From contig NZ_CAMVEE010000018.1 of assembly GCF_947166415.1 (NCBI RefSeq), positions 1 to 40,800 on the forward strand: DNA of 40,800 bases, written 5' to 3'. Source of the stretch: an uncultured Methanobrevibacter sp. (GTDB taxonomy: Archaea; Methanobacteriota; Methanobacteria; Methanobacteriales; Methanobacteriaceae). Position numbers and translations under genes: made by a program. The notes beneath the pieces were generated by a model. That model was not told the origin of the DNA and searched no databases. It saw only the letters and a program-made list of their open reading frames with translations. Shown one piece after another: positions 16,253 to 25,903 of the stretch; within the stretch, counting starts at the first letter, position 1, and each line of letters starts with the position of its first letter.

Positions 16253-17101
16253 TCAATATCTTCCAAAATCGAGGTTTTCTGTGATGTGATTATACCTATC
16301 CTCTTCGGGAGGCAATTGCATATAATCACCATAAAGACTTTTTAGGATATTGTCATAACCTTTAGGAATGTTAACTTCAATATCTTCAAATTTGATTTTA
16401 ATTGTATCCTTAAAATCTTCCTTAAGAAATATTTGAGGATACTCTTCTGCGGTTGCAGATATATCGAATACGCATTTAGCATTTTCGTCCTTAAACTTAT
16501 CTAAAAACTTCAAGCATCTTTTATAGATTGTAAATGGTTTAACCTTAAGTAAATTTAAAATGTAATAACCTGTATAGGTTATCAGCTTTGTAACTAATGG
16601 CAAATCGTCCAGTTTAATTTTAGACATAATTAACAGTTTATTATATAAAAAAGCTCGTTTAAGTTGATAATTCCTTTTAAGATTATTGTCACTCAAATCA
16701 TCCAAAACAAAAATATCCATATTAATTCCCACATGGAAATTGACTTGGCTAACCCAATTTTCTTCAAAACGAGTGTCTTTAATCATTAATTTAGAAAGGG
16801 TGTGAAAATAATCCTCTTCGGTTTCATTAGTCAGTAATTCATATTTTTCATTTGGAGATGAGATGAAAACCTTTTTAAATTTTTCATAATCCTCCCTAAA
16901 CATTATAACATCCAAATCATCATCCCATGGAATAAAACCATTATGTCTAACAGCACCCAATAAAGATCCGGCATACATATAATAAGTTAAGTCATTTTCT
17001 TCACAAATTTTGATAAAATCCTTTAAAATCATCAATTCGAGACTTTGCAAATGTTTTAAAGTTTTTTCATCATATTCAGTGTATTTCAATTTATCACACA
17101 A
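16253..17101 (-). CDS. LicD-family phosphotransferase (first of three)
   Basis: A 282-residue LicD protein. Bacterial LicD moves phosphocholine from CDP-choline to surface glycans; the wider family transfers other phospho-groups from CDP-activated donors. The family core GSLLGAVRHNGFIPWDDDLD is near residues 45-64, and the C-terminal YGDYMQLPPEEDRYNH matches the second LicD (23382). It is last in the operon with PEP mutase and phosphonopyruvate decarboxylase, so a phosphonate group is a plausible cargo (inference). The start is TTG at 17101; a second in-frame TTG at 17089 has GTGAT just upstream and may be the true start. Confidence 0.9.
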   Translation of the reverse strand: MCDKLKYTEYDEKTLKHLQSLELMILKDFIKICEENDLTYYMYAGSLLGAVRHNGFIPWDDDLDVIMFREDYEKFKKVFISSPNEKYELLTNETEEDYFHTLSKLMIKDTRFEENWVSQVNFHVGINMDIFVLDDLSDNNLKRNYQLKRAFLYNKLLIMSKIKLDDLPLVTKLITYTGYYILNLLKVKPFTIYKRCLKFLDKFKDENAKCVFDISATAEEYPQIFLKEDFKDTIKIKFEDIEVNIPKGYDNILKSLYGDYMQLPPEEDRYNHITENLDFGRY

Positions 17102-17102
17102 A

Positions 17103-18221
17103 TTATTGTTTTAAGAATTCCATGAAGTTTTCTTTGTTTTCTAATGCTGTAGTGGTTGGTCTTCCTAAATCTTCACGAGCACCAATGGAACACATTATCT
17201 CAATAAAGCAAAGCTCATTTAAAGATTTGGCCTTTTCAAGTTCAATGTCCAAATCTTTGAAATTATCAACGGAAACCGCATAAGAATAACCGCAGGCATC
17301 AGCTATTTTAATCAAATCCATATTTGTTGCAACGGTAGGCATTCCTCCAACAGTCTCGTGAGCACCATTGTTAATGACAATATGTACCAGATTTTTTGGG
17401 TTATTACTACCTACAACAGCCATGGACCCCATATGCATCAATACGGACCCATCACCATCTATACACCAAACTTTCTTATCAGGCTTGTTTATAGCAACCC
17501 CTAAAGCTATAGAAGAAGTATGACCCATAGAACCAACAGTCAAAAAGTCATATTTATGGCTTTGATTTGAATTGGCCCTAATTTCAAAAAGTTCTCTACT
17601 AGCTTTTCCTGTAGTTGAAATAATTGGGTCTTCACCTGTTACATTAACGATGTGTTCAATGATTTCTTCACGAACCATATCATTATCATTTTCATATTTC
17701 ACTTTAACATCATAAGATAATGCATTTTTACGAATGATGAAAGCGACATTCTTGCCTGCTGCAAGAACCTTTTTATAGTTTTCCATAACTGTTTCAAGCT
17801 CTTCAACAGTGGTGTCTGTGCCTATGACAAAATTTTCAATATCCATTAAATCCAGCAGTTTGCAGGTTATTTCACCCTGATAAATGTGCTGAGGTTCATC
17901 ATGAACTCCAGGCTCTCCACGCCAGCCGATTACAAAAATAGCTGGAATGGCATAAACTTGGTCATTCAAAAGTGATGCGACAGGATTAATGATATTTCCT
18001 TCACCACTGTTTTGCATATAAATGACTGGAACTTTACCGGTTGCTAAATGATATCCTGCAGCAAGAGCTGTACAGCTACCTTCGTTAGCGGCAATTATGT
18101 GGTGATTTTCATCAATCCCATATGTATTCATTAAATAATTACATAATGCTTTCAGTTGTGAATCAGGAACACCTGTATAAAAATCACAACCTAAAACATT
18201 AACAAAATCTTCAACATTCAT
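17103..18221 (-). CDS. aepY: Phosphonopyruvate decarboxylase
   Basis: A thiamine-diphosphate enzyme that decarboxylates phosphonopyruvate to phosphonoacetaldehyde and so pulls the unfavourable PEP mutase equilibrium forward. The 372 residues fit the short family form with a PYR domain (N-terminal GVPDSQLKALC, then AANEGSCTALAAGYHLATGK) and a PP domain with the ThDP/Mg motif beginning IDGDGSVLMHMGS and ending INNGAHETVGG. Sulfopyruvate decarboxylase of coenzyme M synthesis is the close alternative, but a PEP mutase gene in the same operon favours phosphonopyruvate. ATG 18221 has an AAGGA ribosome site. It lies 9 bases after the unknown dehydrogenase. Confidence 0.9.
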   Translation of the reverse strand: MNVEDFVNVLGCDFYTGVPDSQLKALCNYLMNTYGIDENHHIIAANEGSCTALAAGYHLATGKVPVIYMQNSGEGNIINPVASLLNDQVYAIPAIFVIGWRGEPGVHDEPQHIYQGEITCKLLDLMDIENFVIGTDTTVEELETVMENYKKVLAAGKNVAFIIRKNALSYDVKVKYENDNDMVREEIIEHIVNVTGEDPIISTTGKASRELFEIRANSNQSHKYDFLTVGSMGHTSSIALGVAINKPDKKVWCIDGDGSVLMHMGSMAVVGSNNPKNLVHIVINNGAHETVGGMPTVATNMDLIKIADACGYSYAVSVDNFKDLDIELEKAKSLNELCFIEIMCSIGAREDLGRPTTTALENKENFMEFLKQ

Positions 18222-18230
18222 TTTAATTCC

Positions 18231-19412
18231 TTATTTATTTAATTGTGGAGTAATAATTTTTTCAATTAAAAAGTCTGCAGTTTTTTCAATGTCGTCGTAT
18301 TTAACTTCTTTAGGAAGGTCTTCTCCAAAAGCTTCTTTTACTTTTCTGATTAAGTCATCTGTATAAATTAATGTAGCATCTTTAATGTCTTCCACACCAT
18401 CTAAAGCCAATGATTCGCGGTTTGCCTTATCCATTTCCTCAAAGGAGAACACTGATTCATCAATCCATGATGAAATTTCATCATCCTTATATCCGAAAAT
18501 TACAGGATATCCTCCGATGTTGCCGAATACTCCTGGAGAGAATACTTTTTGGTCTTCACCAGTACGGATTGCATCAATGACTGCACTAATAATACGATAA
18601 TTACTTGAAGCATTCATCATGTTTCTTTTTTGGTCAACAGGCATACTGATGGAACATGCTTTGAAAATATCATCATGAGGAAGGTCTTTCTCTTCACCTT
18701 TATAGTAGACTTTAAGAGGTAACTCCACACCTTCAGTTTGACCTTCTTTACTTATGCAAACATCATGGAAATGTGCTGCTGCAAAATTAAAATCGACATT
18801 CCAAAAATCATCAACGCCTAACATATCCGCTACAGCAAATTTCATTCTTGGAATCAAGTGATTCAAGTTTCCGCTTCCGAAATCAGGATATGCTTTTCCT
18901 GCGCTTTTAAGCCAAGGAATGACCGCATCAGAATAGGAAGTGTTAATGACAACTGCGTTAGTGTCTGCTTTGTCACAGGCTTCCATAATATTTTTAGTGA
19001 ATTTGATTGATAATGGAGTCCAGATTCCATATGCTCTAACATTATTCCAGGATATGCTTCCATATTTAAGGCCAGGATAAGCCCTACTGGAATTGACAAT
19101 GAAATCAGGATTATATTTTGATATTGCTTTTTCAATGGAATCAATATCATTTAAATCCACTCCAGATTCAACGATAATCTGTGATTTGTTAACTTCACGG
19201 ATAAGTCCTGCAACTCTTACGATATTTACATCAGATTGCATTTTTTCAGCATTTCTTCCAACAACAACTAATTTTATTGCAGGGTCATTTTTACTGACTA
19301 AAAAATCTAATAAATAGGTACCTACGCTACCTAAACCAATTATCATTATTGTAATTTCATCATCTTTTACATGTTTTTCAACTATTTTTAATCTTTCATC
19401 TAAAGTTTTCAT
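18231..19412 (-). CDS. NAD(P)-binding oxidoreductase-like protein, unrecognised
   Basis: A 393-residue protein with an N-terminal Rossmann fold (IMIIGLGSVGTYLLDFLVS, then KLVVVGRNAEKM), followed by NPDFIVNSSRAYPG and a second domain with GSGNLNHLIPRM and VFGNIGGYPVIFGY. The fold is broadly of the malate-dehydrogenase or saccharopine-dehydrogenase kind, but I know no named family that fits. It lies between the cytidylyltransferase-like gene and aepY, so reduction of phosphonoacetaldehyde to 2-hydroxyethylphosphonate is an attractive guess. ATG 19412 is preferred: it overlaps the upstream stop as TAATG with GGAG upstream, indicating coupled translation; a longer reading from 19427 is less likely. 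Confidence 0.75.
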   Translation of the reverse strand: MKTLDERLKIVEKHVKDDEITIMIIGLGSVGTYLLDFLVSKNDPAIKLVVVGRNAEKMQSDVNIVRVAGLIREVNKSQIIVESGVDLNDIDSIEKAISKYNPDFIVNSSRAYPGLKYGSISWNNVRAYGIWTPLSIKFTKNIMEACDKADTNAVVINTSYSDAVIPWLKSAGKAYPDFGSGNLNHLIPRMKFAVADMLGVDDFWNVDFNFAAAHFHDVCISKEGQTEGVELPLKVYYKGEEKDLPHDDIFKACSISMPVDQKRNMMNASSNYRIISAVIDAIRTGEDQKVFSPGVFGNIGGYPVIFGYKDDEISSWIDESVFSFEEMDKANRESLALDGVEDIKDATLIYTDDLIRKVKEAFGEDLPKEVKYDDIEKTADFLIEKIITPQLNK

Positions 19413-20185
19413 TATTCTCCACTCCAATAATTTTTAATAAGTTTATAATCTTCACGAGTATTGCAGTTTACCCAATGCTTCAATCCAATAATATCAACAT
19501 CAGAGTCATCATCCAACAAATCAAAATATTTTTGTATTATTCCTAAGTTAGTGTCTTCAATGAGATTTTCCTTAAAGTTGTCATTTGCGATTTTGAGTAG
19601 ATTCATGTCTTTAAATTTCCAAACTTGACCTGAATTGAAAATAGCTTTGAATGGTTCACCAATACTTAACATGCCATGGCTGGTGCTGAATAGATAATGG
19701 TACTCATCATTTTCATTTTGATATAAAACAACAGCCTTATTTGAATAAATTGGATTAAAATTATATGTTAAAACATTTTTATTTGAATTTACCACATTTG
19801 AGAATGAGTCATCATCAATATCCAAGTCTCCTTCAACAAAAAGGATTTCATCAATATCGCCGAAACTGTTGAATGACACATTAATTCCAAGATACAAGCT
19901 ATAACCAGAACTCAAATCACTGAAATGATCATTTTCAATGAGTAAAATCTTTTCTTGTAAATTCTGAGGAATATGTTCGTCGATATAGCTGATTAAATCT
20001 TGGTATTTGTATCCGCCAACAATCACGATTCTATCTGCGAAATCGGATTTTTTAACCATCTTGTAAATTAGAGTATCTTCAGGGTTTTCTTCATAATATA
20101 AGCATTTCAAGATTTTTTCTTCTTCGGGGATTCCTTCATTAAACCTGCTAGAAACTCCTGCTACAGTAATGATTACGATTTTCAA
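19412..20185 (-). CDS. LicC/PntC-like nucleotidyltransferase
   Basis: A 257-residue protein of the sugar-nucleotidyltransferase fold. The N-terminal loop TVAGVSSRFNEGIPEEEKIL stands where the usual GxGxR...PK signature is, with Lys25 or nearby for the CTP phosphates; LFVEGDLDIDDDSF supplies the metal-binding acidic residues. The altered loop recalls LicC and PntC enzymes that make CDP-choline and CDP-aminoethylphosphonate. In this operon it may activate a C2 phosphonate for LicD transfer (inference). Translation starts at TTG 20185, decided by an AGGTGA ribosome site 6 bases upstream. It overlaps the next gene as TAATG. Confidence 0.75.
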   Translation of the reverse strand: MKIVIITVAGVSSRFNEGIPEEEKILKCLYYEENPEDTLIYKMVKKSDFADRIVIVGGYKYQDLISYIDEHIPQNLQEKILLIENDHFSDLSSGYSLYLGINVSFNSFGDIDEILFVEGDLDIDDDSFSNVVNSNKNVLTYNFNPIYSNKAVVLYQNENDEYHYLFSTSHGMLSIGEPFKAIFNSGQVWKFKDMNLLKIANDNFKENLIEDTNLGIIQKYFDLLDDDSDVDIIGLKHWVNCNTREDYKLIKNYWSGE

Positions 20186-20187
20186 AT

Positions 20188-21198
20188 TTATTCACCTGAA
20201 TTAGTGTAATTTTCAACACATTCATCTAATCCTTTATCCAAATCCATTATTGGCTTCCAATTAGTTCTTGTTCTAATTTTTTCAGTTGATAATAATCTTC
20301 TCTCAGGATCAGATTCACGATAACCTTCAAATTTGATGACAGGCTCATCAATGCCCATTTTTTTAGCAATCAATTTTGTTAAATCAATGATTGATATCTC
20401 CTCATCGGTTGCAACATTATAAATTGTACCGTCCAATGCTGAATCTGTTTTAGCCAATGCCAATACAGCACTGCAGCTATCATAATTATGTAGGAAAGTC
20501 CTGCAGTTCTTTTTGGAGTTTTCCAATAAAGTCACTTCACCATCATTTATGAAACTGTTAATAATATGTGGAATGATATGTTTCGGCAATTTTTCGTTTT
20601 TACTGTAAACATTAGCAAAACGGATGGAACAGCCTTTGATTTTACCGTTATCCACCGCATCCTTCATGAAAAATTCAGTTAAAAGTTTTCCGGTGGCGTA
20701 ACTTGTTCTTTGGCTATGTTCTGCATCGGCCATAGTAATGTAATCAGATTCTTTTACTCCCCCATCCTCATTCCAGGAATTCATGGAATAGATTTCAGAA
20801 GTGGAACAGTTAATGTATTTTTCAGCTCCAACTTCAATAGCTTGAGTTAAAAAATCATTCATACTGACTACATTGGTTTCATAAGTCTCATAAACATTGT
20901 AAAAGTGTTCTGTGTGAACGACAGCTGCACAATTAATGTAAATGACTTCATCAAAATCCTCTTTAAGGCTTAAAACTAATGATTTGATAGCATCCATTTG
21001 CTCTTTCTTGTTTAAATCATATTCATGGAACTCAAAGCGTTCATCATCCAAACAATCCTTTACTGTATCGATTGATGAAGCATAAAAATTATCAAAACCT
21101 ATTACATATACTTCGTCTTGGTCCTGATTTAAAAGCTGGCGAACCAACTCGTTACCAGTCATTCCTGTTACACCACTAATAATATACAATATTTTCAT
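20188..21198 (-). CDS. NAD-dependent epimerase/dehydratase (extended SDR)
   Basis: A 336-residue extended short-chain dehydrogenase. The cofactor loop GVTGMTG is at residues 9-15, the catalytic Ser region is NCSTSEIYS, and the Tyr-Lys pair lies in YATGK. The C-terminal half resembles nucleotide-sugar epimerases and dehydratases (RTFLHNYDSCSAVLALA, YNVATDEEISI). The substrate is unknown: probably a nucleotide sugar for the glycan that the LicD proteins decorate, although a role on the phosphonate intermediate cannot be excluded. It has an AAGGGGATT ribosome site and lies 11 bases after the phosphoesterase. Confidence 0.85.
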   Translation of the reverse strand: MKILYIISGVTGMTGNELVRQLLNQDQDEVYVIGFDNFYASSIDTVKDCLDDERFEFHEYDLNKKEQMDAIKSLVLSLKEDFDEVIYINCAAVVHTEHFYNVYETYETNVVSMNDFLTQAIEVGAEKYINCSTSEIYSMNSWNEDGGVKESDYITMADAEHSQRTSYATGKLLTEFFMKDAVDNGKIKGCSIRFANVYSKNEKLPKHIIPHIINSFINDGEVTLLENSKKNCRTFLHNYDSCSAVLALAKTDSALDGTIYNVATDEEISIIDLTKLIAKKMGIDEPVIKFEGYRESDPERRLLSTEKIRTRTNWKPIMDLDKGLDECVENYTNSGE

Positions 21199-21209
21199 AT
21201 AAATCCCCT

Positions 21210-21941
21210 TTAAATACCATTTTCTAATCGTTTTCTATAAAAATCATCAACACTGCCATCAAATAAATCCATAGCATCATATTTTGGATATTTGACAGCC
21301 CTCAATTCAACGTTCATCAGATCTGTGTCCAAAATTGCATATTGTGCATTTGGATTATGGTTTCTAGGCTGTCCCACAGAACCTGGATTAATAAATAAAA
21401 CTGATTTTTTGTTTCTCATTTCAGGATTATCAACTTCATAAAACTTTTGAAAAACATGAGGATAATGAGAATGGCCTGATAAAACAATATCATAATCCCT
21501 GTAATCCCCATTGAGATTATCCGGAAAAATCGCCTTCCAATAATTGTCATTCAATGAACCATGTATGGCCAATACCTTTTTTCCGTCCAAATCAAATTCA
21601 TATTTCCCTTCATGATCTAATTCATTATTCAAATAATTCCTAGAATTATCATTCAACTGGGAAAATGTAAATTTTGCAGATTCCACTCCCCTTTCAGAGG
21701 AAAAGAAATTAAAATCTTCGGTTAAAATAGCTCTTTCATGATTCCCCCAGATATTACATATTATTTTAGAAGATAAATTCTTCTCAATGTATTCAACCAC
21801 TTCATTTGATTGCATACCATAATCTATTAAGTCACCTAAAAGAATTAAAGAGGAAATTTCATTATTATCTATATCACCAATTACCTCTTCCAAAGCAAAT
21901 AGATTTCCATGAATATCTGATAAAATCGCATATTTTGACAT
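21210..21941 (-). CDS. Calcineurin-like metallophosphoesterase
   Basis: A 243-residue protein with the full dimetal phosphoesterase motif set: LSDIHGN, LGDLIDYG, WGNHERA, AIHGSLND and SGHSHYPHVF. It belongs to the YfcE/MJ0936-like group, which cleaves phosphodiesters or phosphomonoesters. Within this operon it could hydrolyse a CDP-linked intermediate or release or edit a phosphoryl group on the glycan; this is context only. It sits 7 bases after aepX, with an AGTGGTTAA ribosome site. Confidence 0.9.
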   Translation of the reverse strand: MSKYAILSDIHGNLFALEEVIGDIDNNEISSLILLGDLIDYGMQSNEVVEYIEKNLSSKIICNIWGNHERAILTEDFNFFSSERGVESAKFTFSQLNDNSRNYLNNELDHEGKYEFDLDGKKVLAIHGSLNDNYWKAIFPDNLNGDYRDYDIVLSGHSHYPHVFQKFYEVDNPEMRNKKSVLFINPGSVGQPRNHNPNAQYAILDTDLMNVELRAVKYPKYDAMDLFDGSVDDFYRKRLENGI

Positions 21942-21948
21942 TTAACCA

Positions 21949-23256
21949 CTATAATTCATCGATTAATGTAATAATATCTTTAATGGACAATAATTCTTCA
22001 TCAATTTCATGTGCTCTGTGATATTTCAATATGCTTTTTGCGGCATTTTGCATTGCCGGGAATGCTGCCCTTAACAATTGATTTGCATAAATCACAATAT
22101 TGACGCCATGTTGAATAAGTTCCTCTTCAGTGATAGTATTAAATGAAGATGGCACTACAACAATTGGAGTTTCTTTATCTTCAGCTCTGAACTTATCGCA
22201 GAATTCCAATATTTCATCAGGTTCTTTTCTTCTGCTGTGAATCATTATTCCATCAGCACCTGCATCCCTAAACGCGAATGCCCTTTTAAGTGCATCTTCC
22301 ATACCTTGTTCAAGAATTAAACTTTCAATTCTTGCTATAATCATGAAATCATCAGATAATTGGGCGTTTTTGCCTGCAGCGATTTTTTCACAGAAATGTT
22401 CAATATCATCCTGAGTTTGTTCCACTTCAGTACCGAATAATGAATTTTTCTTTAATCCCACTTTATCTTCGATAATTACTGCTGAAACTCCCATTCTTTC
22501 AAGGGATCTGACAGTGTAAACAAAATGTTCTGCAATACCCCCTGTATCTCCATCAAAAATAATCGGTTTGGTTGTAACTTCCATGATATCGTTGATTGTC
22601 CTGAATCTAGAAGTCATATCAACTAATTCAATATCAGGCTTTCCTTTTTCAGTACTGTCACATAAACTTGATATCCACATTGCATCAAATTGGTCAATAT
22701 GATTTTCATCGGCAACAACAGTTTTTTCAGCGATTAAACCTGTTAATCCGCTGTGAACCTCAATTGTTTTAACAATAGGAATCATATCCAATAACTTTCT
22801 TAACCTTCCCCTCCTAAGTTCCGGCATTGAAAGCTGCTCTTTCATTTGCCTATCAATTTTTTGAATCTTTTCATTGAAAGTATAAGGAACTTCTATTAGC
22901 TCTCCACCGTATTTATCAAGATTGTCAACGATATTTTTCCTGATGACTTTCATAGAATCTTCGGACCAGTTGTTTCCATGAATAATGTAATCTGGTTTAA
23001 GTTCACGAACAACATCATCATACATTATTTTATATTGAACAATGACCTCTTTAACATCAGGGATTTCTTTAACTAAATCCATACGTTCTTTGGTTGTTTT
23101 TAATGGGAATCTATTATATTTTACCATTTCTGAATCACAAAGAACTCCAACGACGACATCACCATATTTTTTAGCTTCATTGATTAAATTAAGATGTCCT
23201 TCATGGATTACATCAGTACAAAAACAAGTATATACAATCGGATTATCAGCTTTCAT
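21949..23256 (-). CDS. aepX: Nucleotidyltransferase-PEP mutase fusion
   Basis: Makes the C-P bond by converting phosphoenolpyruvate to phosphonopyruvate. It has 435 residues from ATG 23256. Residues 1-140 are a TagD/ECT-type cytidylyltransferase domain with HEGH at 18-21 standing for HxGH, and residues 150-435 form the PEP mutase barrel. In the barrel DGDTGG (235-240) is the metal region, and EDKVGLKKNS (263-272) is the mutase signature that separates it from isocitrate lyases. ATG 23256 is decided by an AAAGGTAA ribosome site; the reading frame extends 28 codons further but that part looks untranslated. First gene of the operon. Confidence 0.93.
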   Translation of the reverse strand: MKADNPIVYTCFCTDVIHEGHLNLINEAKKYGDVVVGVLCDSEMVKYNRFPLKTTKERMDLVKEIPDVKEVIVQYKIMYDDVVRELKPDYIIHGNNWSEDSMKVIRKNIVDNLDKYGGELIEVPYTFNEKIQKIDRQMKEQLSMPELRRGRLRKLLDMIPIVKTIEVHSGLTGLIAEKTVVADENHIDQFDAMWISSLCDSTEKGKPDIELVDMTSRFRTINDIMEVTTKPIIFDGDTGGIAEHFVYTVRSLERMGVSAVIIEDKVGLKKNSLFGTEVEQTQDDIEHFCEKIAAGKNAQLSDDFMIIARIESLILEQGMEDALKRAFAFRDAGADGIMIHSRRKEPDEILEFCDKFRAEDKETPIVVVPSSFNTITEEELIQHGVNIVIYANQLLRAAFPAMQNAAKSILKYHRAHEIDEELLSIKDIITLIDEL

Positions 23257-23381
23257 AAAATTACCTTTAATTATTAAAATTACATAATATAGTATATTAT
23301 AAGTTTTAAAAAAAGAAATATTTAAAAATTTCCAACACAAAAATAAAAATAACTTAATAAAATAATTAATGGGAAAAAACT
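23257..23381. promoter_or_regulatory. Divergent promoter of the surface-polymer island
   Basis: 125 AT-rich bases between aepX (minus) and the second LicD gene (plus). For aepX, minus-strand CTTATAATATACTATATTATG at about 23284-23305 would start transcription near 23272, leaving a short leader with the AAAGGTAA site. For the plus side, AAATATTTAAAAATTT near 23317-23332 is a weak TATA candidate, and GGGA precedes ATG 23382. Confidence 0.4.
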
Positions 23382-24235: not shown

Positions 24236-25204
24236 ATGACATTAAATATTGGTGTTGTCGGTGCAGGTGCTATGGGAACTGCGATTTCCCAATCAATAGC
24301 TGAAAATGCAAATAAATTATTCTTATATGCTAGGAAAAAAGAAGTTTCTGAAGAAATTAACACTAAACATTACAATTCACAATATTATCCTAATCTAAAA
24401 TTAAAAGAGAATATAATAGGCATAAACGATTTCAGTAAATTAAATGAAGTGGACATTGTTTTTTTATGCATTCCATCCTCTACTGTTCGTGAAGTAACTT
24501 CTGAATTAAAAGAAATAATATCAGAAGAATGTATAGTAGTTACAACTGCAAAAGGAATGGAATCTAAAACAAATAAGCGTATGACTGAAGTGATAGAAGA
24601 AATTATCGAAAGACCCGCTGTTGCATTATCCGGGCCAAACATTGCTTCTGAAATGGCTAAAAATTTATCCACCGCAACAACTATCGCATGTTCTGATGAA
24701 AACTACCTGAAAAAAGTTAAAAAAGCATTAGAAACTAAAAAATTCAAAGTAAACGCCAATACAGATGTTGTTGGAACTGAATATTGTGGAATCCTCAAAA
24801 ATATTCTTGCAATCAGCCAAGGAATATGTGAAGGCTTGGACATTAACGATAATGCGAGATTTGCTTTATTTACCAAAAGTTATTCTGAAACAAAAGAAAT
24901 TATAGAAAAATTGGGTGGAAAAAGAGATACTGTCGATGATTACTGTGGATTCGGAGATATCATCACTGCATCTACCCTATCAGTAAGTAGAAATCATACC
25001 CTAGGAGTATTATACGGACAAGGAATCGTCATCGATGAGCAATCTTCCGGAATATTATTCGAAGGGAAAAATACTGCAGTTATATTGAAAAACCTTTGTG
25101 AAAAGAACAACATTAAAAGTCTAACCGCGGATTTTGTTTATGATGTAATTGTGGAGAAAAATAATCCAAAATTGGCATTTAATAAGTTTTGGGATGGGTT
25201 ATGA
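24236..25204 (+). CDS. gpsA: Glycerol-3-phosphate dehydrogenase GpsA-like
   Basis: A 322-residue NAD(P)-dependent enzyme of the GpsA family, which interconverts DHAP and sn-glycerol 3-phosphate. It shows GVVGAGAMGTAISQSIA at the cofactor site, TTAKGMES, VALSGPNIASEMA, the catalytic Lys in CGILKNILAISQG, and GFGDIITASTLSVSRN. Archaeal lipids use the opposite isomer, sn-glycerol 1-phosphate, so a GpsA here more likely feeds a surface polymer. The stop codon directly abuts the ATG of the next gene, an IspD/TarI-like cytidylyltransferase, suggesting CDP-glycerol or a related product. An AGGTGA ribosome site precedes ATG 24236. Confidence 0.9.
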   Translation: MTLNIGVVGAGAMGTAISQSIAENANKLFLYARKKEVSEEINTKHYNSQYYPNLKLKENIIGINDFSKLNEVDIVFLCIPSSTVREVTSELKEIISEECIVVTTAKGMESKTNKRMTEVIEEIIERPAVALSGPNIASEMAKNLSTATTIACSDENYLKKVKKALETKKFKVNANTDVVGTEYCGILKNILAISQGICEGLDINDNARFALFTKSYSETKEIIEKLGGKRDTVDDYCGFGDIITASTLSVSRNHTLGVLYGQGIVIDEQSSGILFEGKNTAVILKNLCEKNNIKSLTADFVYDVIVEKNNPKLAFNKFWDGL

Positions 25205-25903
25205 ATGATATTTGCAGCAATGCTTGCAGGTGGAATTGGAACTAGAATGGGGTTAAATAAGCCAAAACAGTTTGAAATTGTTGGTGATAAACCAATTCTT
25301 GCTCATTCAATAGGAAACTTTTTAGAAGTTGAAGAAATTGATAAGATTATTGTTTCATCCCCTAAAGAATACATTGATACTACAAAGGAATTAGTTGAAA
25401 AATATTTTGAAAACAATTCCAGAATAGTTGTTATTCAAGGTGGAAAAACCAGAAATGATACTATATTAAATTCCATTGATTACGTCAAATCTAATTTTAA
25501 TGATGAAGATCCGATTTTGATAACCCATGATGCTGCTAGAATATTCGCAAGCCCTGCTTTAATTGAAAAAAGTATTGTAAATGTGATAAATCATGACGCA
25601 GCAAGTCCTGTGATTCCTGCAATTGATGTGATATTTGAAAGCAAAAAAGAAGGAAAATTAACCGATATTCCACTTCGTGAAAATCTAGTGCATTCACAAA
25701 CTCCCCAAAGTTTCAAAATTAATAAATTTCTAGAAATTTATAAAGATTTGACTGAAGATGAGATTGCTAAATTAGATGAAGCGATGATGCTCTTCTTTTT
25801 AAGAGATGGAGATGTGAAATTGTTTGAAGGGGAATCATCAAATTTCAAGATTACCAGAAATATTGATTTAAAAATTGCTGAAGCATATTTAAAAGAGAAT
25901 TAA
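25205..25903 (+). CDS. IspD/TarI-like cytidylyltransferase
   Basis: A 232-residue protein of the IspD/TarI family. It has MLAGGIGTRMGLNKPKQFE for CTP binding, THDAARIFASPALIEKSI, and LVHSQTPQSFKI near residue 158, all standard for polyol-phosphate cytidylyltransferases. Archaea of this group use mevalonate (HMG-CoA synthase is in this window), so an IspD role in the methylerythritol pathway is unlikely. A TarI-like role, making CDP-ribitol, CDP-glycerol or similar for LicD transfer, is the better reading. It is joined directly to gpsA without a gap, and no strong ribosome site is seen, so translation is probably coupled. Confidence 0.85.
   Translation: MIFAAMLAGGIGTRMGLNKPKQFEIVGDKPILAHSIGNFLEVEEIDKIIVSSPKEYIDTTKELVEKYFENNSRIVVIQGGKTRNDTILNSIDYVKSNFNDEDPILITHDAARIFASPALIEKSIVNVINHDAASPVIPAIDVIFESKKEGKLTDIPLRENLVHSQTPQSFKINKFLEIYKDLTEDEIAKLDEAMMLFFLRDGDVKLFEGESSNFKITRNIDLKIAEAYLKEN

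Follow-up and report, generated by a model that had tools for sequence, protein, structure and literature searches.

The window, the whole stretch of 40,800 nucleotides analysed here, from an uncultured Methanobrevibacter sp., carries on its minus strand a cluster of genes for phosphonates, molecules with a carbon-phosphorus bond. The first gene encodes a cytidylyltransferase-PEP mutase fusion (CyT-Ppm; 21949..23340), which scores 412 against TIGR02320 (cut-off 319.6) and has an intact EDKxxxxxNS motif (EDKVGLKKNS). It is followed by a calcineurin-like metallophosphoesterase (21210..21941) and an extended SDR of the epimerase/dehydratase type with the motif SYATGK (20188..21198), both conserved partners in the module described below, then by a DUF6564 (PF20202) protein (19412..20185) and by a dehydrogenase of 393 residues, hereafter DH (18234..19412, with the stop codon extending to 18231). 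Downstream of DH lie the phosphonopyruvate decarboxylase gene (AepY/Ppd; 17103..18221; 474 bits with TIGR03297, whose cut-off is 312.5) and a LicD-family transferase gene (16253..17101), whose product presumably moves the phosphonate from a CMP ester to a glycan. The metallophosphoesterase, SDR, DUF6564 and DH genes constitute a four-gene cassette (18235..21938) that is swapped in another Methanobrevibacter.

DH starts at an ATG (19412-19410) giving 393 residues; a start at the TTG five codons before it would lengthen the protein to 398. The first-pass annotation had located this reading frame correctly and left its strand unmentioned; the plus strand across the same coordinates is full of stops. 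A chance open reading frame was considered and ruled out by 80 relatives conserved at the protein level. At the DUF6564/DH junction, ...GGAGTGGAGAATAATGAAAACT, the two genes overlap by one base in TAATG, the last base of the TAA being the first of the DH ATG. Because of this overlap and a GGAG motif upstream of the ATG, the translational coupling to the nucleotidyltransferase gene proposed earlier is credible, and aepY is indeed the next gene, with a gap of 9 bp between the DH stop and its ATG.

The cluster had also been described as devoid of an AepZ-type aminotransferase and of an iron-type alcohol dehydrogenase (Fe-ADH). This is borne out across the window, where tblastn returned no match to AEP transaminase (AEPT) or Fe-ADH. 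Throughout the genome, which is 91.7 % complete, nothing scored above the cut-off of the AepZ model, and the sole Fe-ADH-family match is the sn-glycerol-1-phosphate dehydrogenase (488.6 bits against 413).

The model of the DUF6564 protein (pLDDT 94) finds its best structural match in PntC-AEPT (6pd2), with LicC among the others, and its profile matches that of LicC with an E value of 2.7e-5. The protein is predicted to have a LicC/PntC-like nucleotidyltransferase fold with an AGxxxRF...K signature, and we presume it to be a CMP-phosphonate synthase.

A six-gene module in archaea and bacteria

An initial deep alignment was too variable throughout to serve as the basis of a collection scan. The scan reported here found 80 DH loci at 49-92 % identity which, taking MAG names as deposited, belong to Methanobrevibacter, Lachnospiraceae, Ruminococcus, Acidaminococcaceae, Fibrobacter, Treponema and other spirochaetes, Bacteroidales and Gastranaerophilales. 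One MAG titled Muribaculum (L063) groups with Lachnospirales in a genome search and its record name is probably wrong; a Bacteroidales survey centred on a 'Muribaculum' MAG gave the Lachnospirales set again.

These loci define a module of PEP mutase, phosphonopyruvate decarboxylase, metallophosphoesterase, SDR epimerase, DUF6564 and DH. Within 10 kb of the 80 DH genes, DUF6564 and the SDR are each found 75 times, the phosphoesterase 71 times and Ppd 69 times. LicD-family genes are near 48-50 of the 80, and no other family reaches more than about a quarter. Three gene orders dominate, with phosphoesterase, SDR, DUF6564 and DH nearly always together. The first-pass annotation had held that homologues lying mostly away from PEP mutase would speak against its reading; at 49-92 % identity, 69 of the 80 lie beside Ppm, and most of the 11 lacking an adjacent one are cut by contig ends.

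Within the genus Methanobrevibacter, DH occurs in 15 of 67 genomes, all of them among the 21 that have Ppm (hypergeometric p 1.6e-10). Ppd scores above its cut-off in all 14 DH genomes tested, even where it is not adjacent to DH, and AepZ scores above its cut-off nowhere in 25 of 29 DH genomes. In the tree, the Methanobrevibacter DH sequences form one clade inside Bacillota (100/100), and the archaeon therefore probably acquired the genes from rumen Bacillota.

Exclusivity with the known enzymes

A sample of Ppm loci was also drawn regardless of DH (40 from Lachnospirales, 60 from Spirochaetia), and the exclusivity count was limited to the 78 loci of at least 12 kb that hold both Ppm and Ppd. 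Of these, 48 carry AEPT, 22 Fe-ADH and 6 DH, with one more carrying both AEPT and Fe-ADH and one carrying none of the three. Among Ppm loci of at least 12 kb without Ppd, five of six have no AEPT, Fe-ADH or DH; thus each of the three goes with the production of phosphonoacetaldehyde (PnAA).

The 80 DH loci include none with Fe-ADH, the motif of which is absent from all their 1258 open reading frames, and a single one with AEPT. In that locus DUF6564 is cut to 112 residues and the SDR and phosphoesterase are missing. Homologues of the phosphoesterase, SDR and DUF6564 (above 90 bits) never occur in the surveyed non-DH loci. Fisher's test gives p 9e-33 for the DH loci against the survey and 4.6e-5 inside the survey, both on loci that are related to one another. 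The idea that DH occupies the slot of phosphonoacetaldehyde reductase or transaminase is strongly supported by the module and its exclusivity. DH does not, however, simply substitute for the known reductase, since it travels with three extra partners, the metallophosphoesterase, SDR and DUF6564, that Fe-ADH loci lack. One Methanobrevibacter genome (G067) combines the two types, with a cluster of the DH module and, apart from it, a phosphonate cluster with Fe-ADH, on contigs C10 and C20.

A natural cassette swap in Methanobrevibacter

In another Methanobrevibacter (genome G084, locus L254), the CyT-Ppm is 93 % identical to that of the window in the mutase domain and the decarboxylase is 76 % identical. 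The flanks align with the window as DNA, at 83 % for CyT-Ppm and 76 % for the decarboxylase. Exactly in place of window positions 18235-21938, L254 carries a methyltransferase and one 613-residue protein of the PntC-AEPT type, which matches the characterised Treponema denticola PntC-AEPT (6pd1/6pd2) over its whole length (855 bits). A close relative of a characterised enzyme thus fills the interval between CyT-Ppm and Ppd; where PntC-AEPT carries a PLP transaminase, the window has DH, SDR and phosphoesterase. Given this swap, and since the PntC domain is the structure closest to the DUF6564 model, it is plausible that DUF6564 stands in for PntC and that DH, SDR and phosphoesterase stand in for the phosphonoacetaldehyde step. 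The cluster offers a clean test, since one Methanobrevibacter has the same cluster with a transaminase cassette. The methyltransferase of L254 (6378-7079), a SAM enzyme encoded between PntC-AEPT and the decarboxylase, suggests N-methyl-AEP as a product there.

Four other Methanobrevibacter loci (L249-L252) are of the Fe-ADH type, as is the cluster of Methanocorpusculum vombati, reported to contain a predicted phosphonoacetaldehyde reductase (PMC10035134). In M. millerae ZA-10, four genes including Ppm and Ppd were found to have no methanogen matches, and modification of a wall polysaccharide was proposed (PMC4987999).

Family, fold and conserved residues of DH

The first-pass annotation could name no family for DH, which is nearly right: among curated families only the PF03435 NADP-binding domain passes, weakly (30.6 against 25.1 bits) and confined to residues 27-114. 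No NCBIfam or PDB sequence family passes, and by sequence DH has no convincing relative in the PDB. Neither the PF00465 iron alcohol dehydrogenase domain nor the class V PLP aminotransferase TIGR03301 was found in DH, nor were matches to the PF00056/PF02866 profiles of lactate and malate dehydrogenases (LDH/MDH).

An AlphaFold2 model of DH built from 52 sequences (pLDDT 90.8, pTM 0.92) points to an LDH/MDH-like fold. Every one of the 50 best fold matches in the PDB is a lactate or malate dehydrogenase, the top one with an E value of 3.7e-10 and a TM-score of about 0.65 by target and 0.54 by query. A structural comparison with malate and saccharopine dehydrogenases had been recommended; the former kind is what the comparison returned, and the latter is not. 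Identity as a saccharopine dehydrogenase was rejected, the likeness being limited to the N-terminal domain and the whole fold disagreeing; family profiles and fold comparison both find the saccharopine-type catalytic domain absent.

LDH/MDH enzymes rely on an Asp-His pair and a substrate-binding Arg for catalysis. Profile-profile alignment of DH with malate dehydrogenases of archaea falls short of significance (E 0.053), so the mapping of residues stays tentative. When forced, this non-significant alignment pairs H214 of DH with the catalytic His, R189 with the substrate Arg and GSGN with GIGN, and a GSGN...R...LGV stretch resembles that of MDH (GIGNHLDSLRLK). DH shares the fold with LDH/MDH and has an invariant His that may stand at the place of the catalytic one, but it differs in lacking the catalytic Asp, in its N- and C-terminal additions and in an Arg of the NADPH type. 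The Asp is not conserved, with His185 at the best-fitting place in the non-significant alignment, and catalysis by DH is thus a guess from the fold and one invariant His.

H214, D162, N182, GGY 300-302 and DG 338-339 are kept across all aligned homologues, except for one Phe in place of Tyr302. All 54 PEP-mutase-linked sequences, and the phage homologue described below, retain R110, K116, Y117, G118, H185 and R189, a set that five homologues away from PEP mutase do not retain as a whole. DH has a GxGxxG motif at residues 26-31 and R53 at the end of beta-2, the latter suggesting use of NADPH and hence a reductase.

Proposed pathway and alternatives

The known phosphonoacetaldehyde reductase PhpC is an iron alcohol dehydrogenase (PMC9381506). 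Like this Fe-type reductase (PhpC/FomC/DhpG; PF00465, TIGR03405-like), DH would act in the pathway after PEP mutase and decarboxylase; unlike it, DH is of unrelated fold and sequence and without the Fe-ADH motif. Earlier work describes PntC, nucleotidyl activation within clusters of PEP mutase genes, and the activation of hydroxyethylphosphonate (HEP) by the fused CyTase of Fom1 type (PMC6697681). The window resembles the Fom1-type clusters of fosfomycin synthesis in its N-terminal CyTase fused to PEP mutase. However a fused CyTase is also present in two AEPT clusters (L027 and L254) and is therefore not, taken alone, diagnostic of HEP. A literature search that covered few subscription papers or preprints returned nothing on DH, DUF6564 or the six-gene module.

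The comparison supports the place of DH in the module, its mutual exclusion with the two known enzymes, the cassette swap, the fold and the cofactor motif. As the best explanation, with a probability of roughly 0.5, we propose that DH is an NADPH-dependent carbonyl reductase in a four-gene cassette that handles PnAA in place of AEPT or the Fe-type reductase. The comparative data assign the cassette as a whole, rather than DH singly, to PnAA: that the cassette acts on PnAA is highly probable, and that DH is the reductase of PnAA has about an even chance, with PnAA to hydroxyethylphosphonate as the leading reaction. What exactly DH acts on, how the steps are ordered, what the SDR and phosphoesterase do and what is finally made are inferred, as follows. 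CyT-Ppm would convert PEP to phosphonopyruvate and AepY would convert phosphonopyruvate to PnAA, which DH, acting on the free compound or its CMP ester, would reduce to the level of 2-hydroxyethylphosphonate. The SDR and phosphoesterase may tailor or release the phosphonate, a cytidylyltransferase (DUF6564, the CyT domain or both) would activate the product as a CMP-phosphonate, and LicD would move it onto a surface glycan.

Plain formation of hydroxyethylphosphonate fails to explain the partners of DH, since Fe-ADH loci do without all three. DH may therefore act on another, possibly CMP-linked, intermediate, and with the extra SDR and phosphoesterase the end product may exceed plain HEP. One such scheme, possible and in our judgement somewhat unlikely, has DH act later, on a nucleotide-linked intermediate: DUF6564 would make CMP-phosphonoacetaldehyde or another CMP-phosphonate, the SDR and DH would modify it while it is attached to CMP and the phosphoesterase would free it, giving a final phosphonate that is neither plain AEP nor plain HEP. 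CMP serves as a carrier in fosfomycin and FR-900098 synthesis, and SDRs of the epimerase/dehydratase type usually use nucleotide-linked substrates. DH, SDR, DUF6564 and phosphoesterase form one package absent from Fe-ADH and AEPT loci, two cytidylyltransferases and a phosphoesterase fit a sequence of binding, modification, release and reactivation, and the PntC/LicC-like model of DUF6564 agrees with it. Enzymes with an LDH/MDH-like fold, however, more often act on small carbonyl compounds.

The replacement of AEPT by DH in an otherwise nearly identical cluster could alternatively mean that DH reductively aminates PnAA with ammonia or an amino acid, yielding AEP or N-substituted AEP without a PLP transaminase. 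Saccharopine and carboxyspermidine dehydrogenases reduce imines, and the N-terminal domain of DH scores weakly with them; the whole fold is nevertheless of the LDH/MDH and not the saccharopine type, and no conserved imine-reductase feature was found in DH, which makes this improbable. Phosphonopyruvate is an analogue of oxaloacetate, and the MDH-like fold, with R189 on the substrate-binding Arg of MDH in the forced alignment, would suit a phosphonopyruvate reductase forming phosphonolactate in parallel to Ppd. This is still less probable, since Ppd always accompanies DH: all 14 DH genomes tested have it and DH in the survey occurs only alongside it. Moreover, DH swaps with PnAA-using genes, and the MDH alignment is not significant. 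That DH serves neighbouring nucleotide-sugar or glycan chemistry and sits beside Ppm incidentally, as distant homologues away from Ppm (22-29 % identity) and the location of the clusters in polysaccharide regions might suggest, is the least credible reading given the co-occurrence of DH and Ppm within the genus and a module kept over at least five phyla, two domains and one phage with clade-specific residues.

As a member of a four-gene set that, in gut methanogens and many gut bacteria, stands in for the enzymes known from the later half of the synthesis, DH marks a third, undescribed way of making phosphonates. Nearly all surveyed clusters with Ppm and Ppd belong to the transaminase (AEP) or the iron alcohol dehydrogenase (HEP) branch. 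The DH cassette adds a third that spans rumen and gut Methanobrevibacter, Lachnospiraceae, Ruminococcus, Fibrobacter and Treponema. From this branch one would expect a surface phosphonate, so far unrecognised, in major organisms of the gut and rumen, and DUF6564 gains a likely function.

Phage and plasmid homologues and the surroundings of the cluster

Homologues of all six module genes are found in Vibrio phage Va2 (MW073017.1), scattered over about 42 kb (80916-122525 of the record). The Va2 DH is 32 % identical to that of the window along 90 % of its length (E 2e-47), and its partners are a PEP mutase, a decarboxylase, an SDR (29 %), a phosphoesterase (39 %) and a DUF6564-like protein. The activity of the Va2 PEP mutase is uncertain because of one extra residue in its EDKxxxxxNS motif. 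Va2 is a tailed phage, and its PEP mutase gene adjoins that of ribonucleotide reductase. Scans of IMG/VR for more viral copies found none, and the literature search found no paper on Va2. Two faecal contigs named 'Bacteriophage sp.' that carry Ppm (L027 and L028) look like bacterial DNA. The presence of these six genes in a phage prompts the question what purpose phosphonate synthesis would serve in a virus, whether modification of DNA or of the host surface. We would advance only tentatively, at less than even odds, that the product of the cassette is a phosphonate other than AEP and HEP, carried on CMP and formed via an LDH-fold dehydrogenase and an SDR, and that gut methanogens and bacteria use it for surface glycans and a Vibrio phage does so independently.

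The distant relatives of DH at 22-29 % identity lie on rhizobial, Planktothrix (cyanobacterial) and Rhodobacteraceae plasmids, among other neighbours. On three rhizobial plasmids (L021, L022 and L025), the homologue, at about 12000, has as neighbours an alanine-racemase-like gene and one for a HAD hydrolase of TIGR01459; two of the three have a DMT transporter, and C45 peptidases are nearby.

On the plus strand of the window (24236-25903), a bacterial-type glycerol-3-phosphate dehydrogenase gene adjoins one for an IspD-like D-ribitol-5-phosphate cytidylyltransferase (NF001183, 274 bits against 166). Three LicD genes lie close by, and the region resembles a pathway for a teichoic-acid-like polymer, here in an archaeon.
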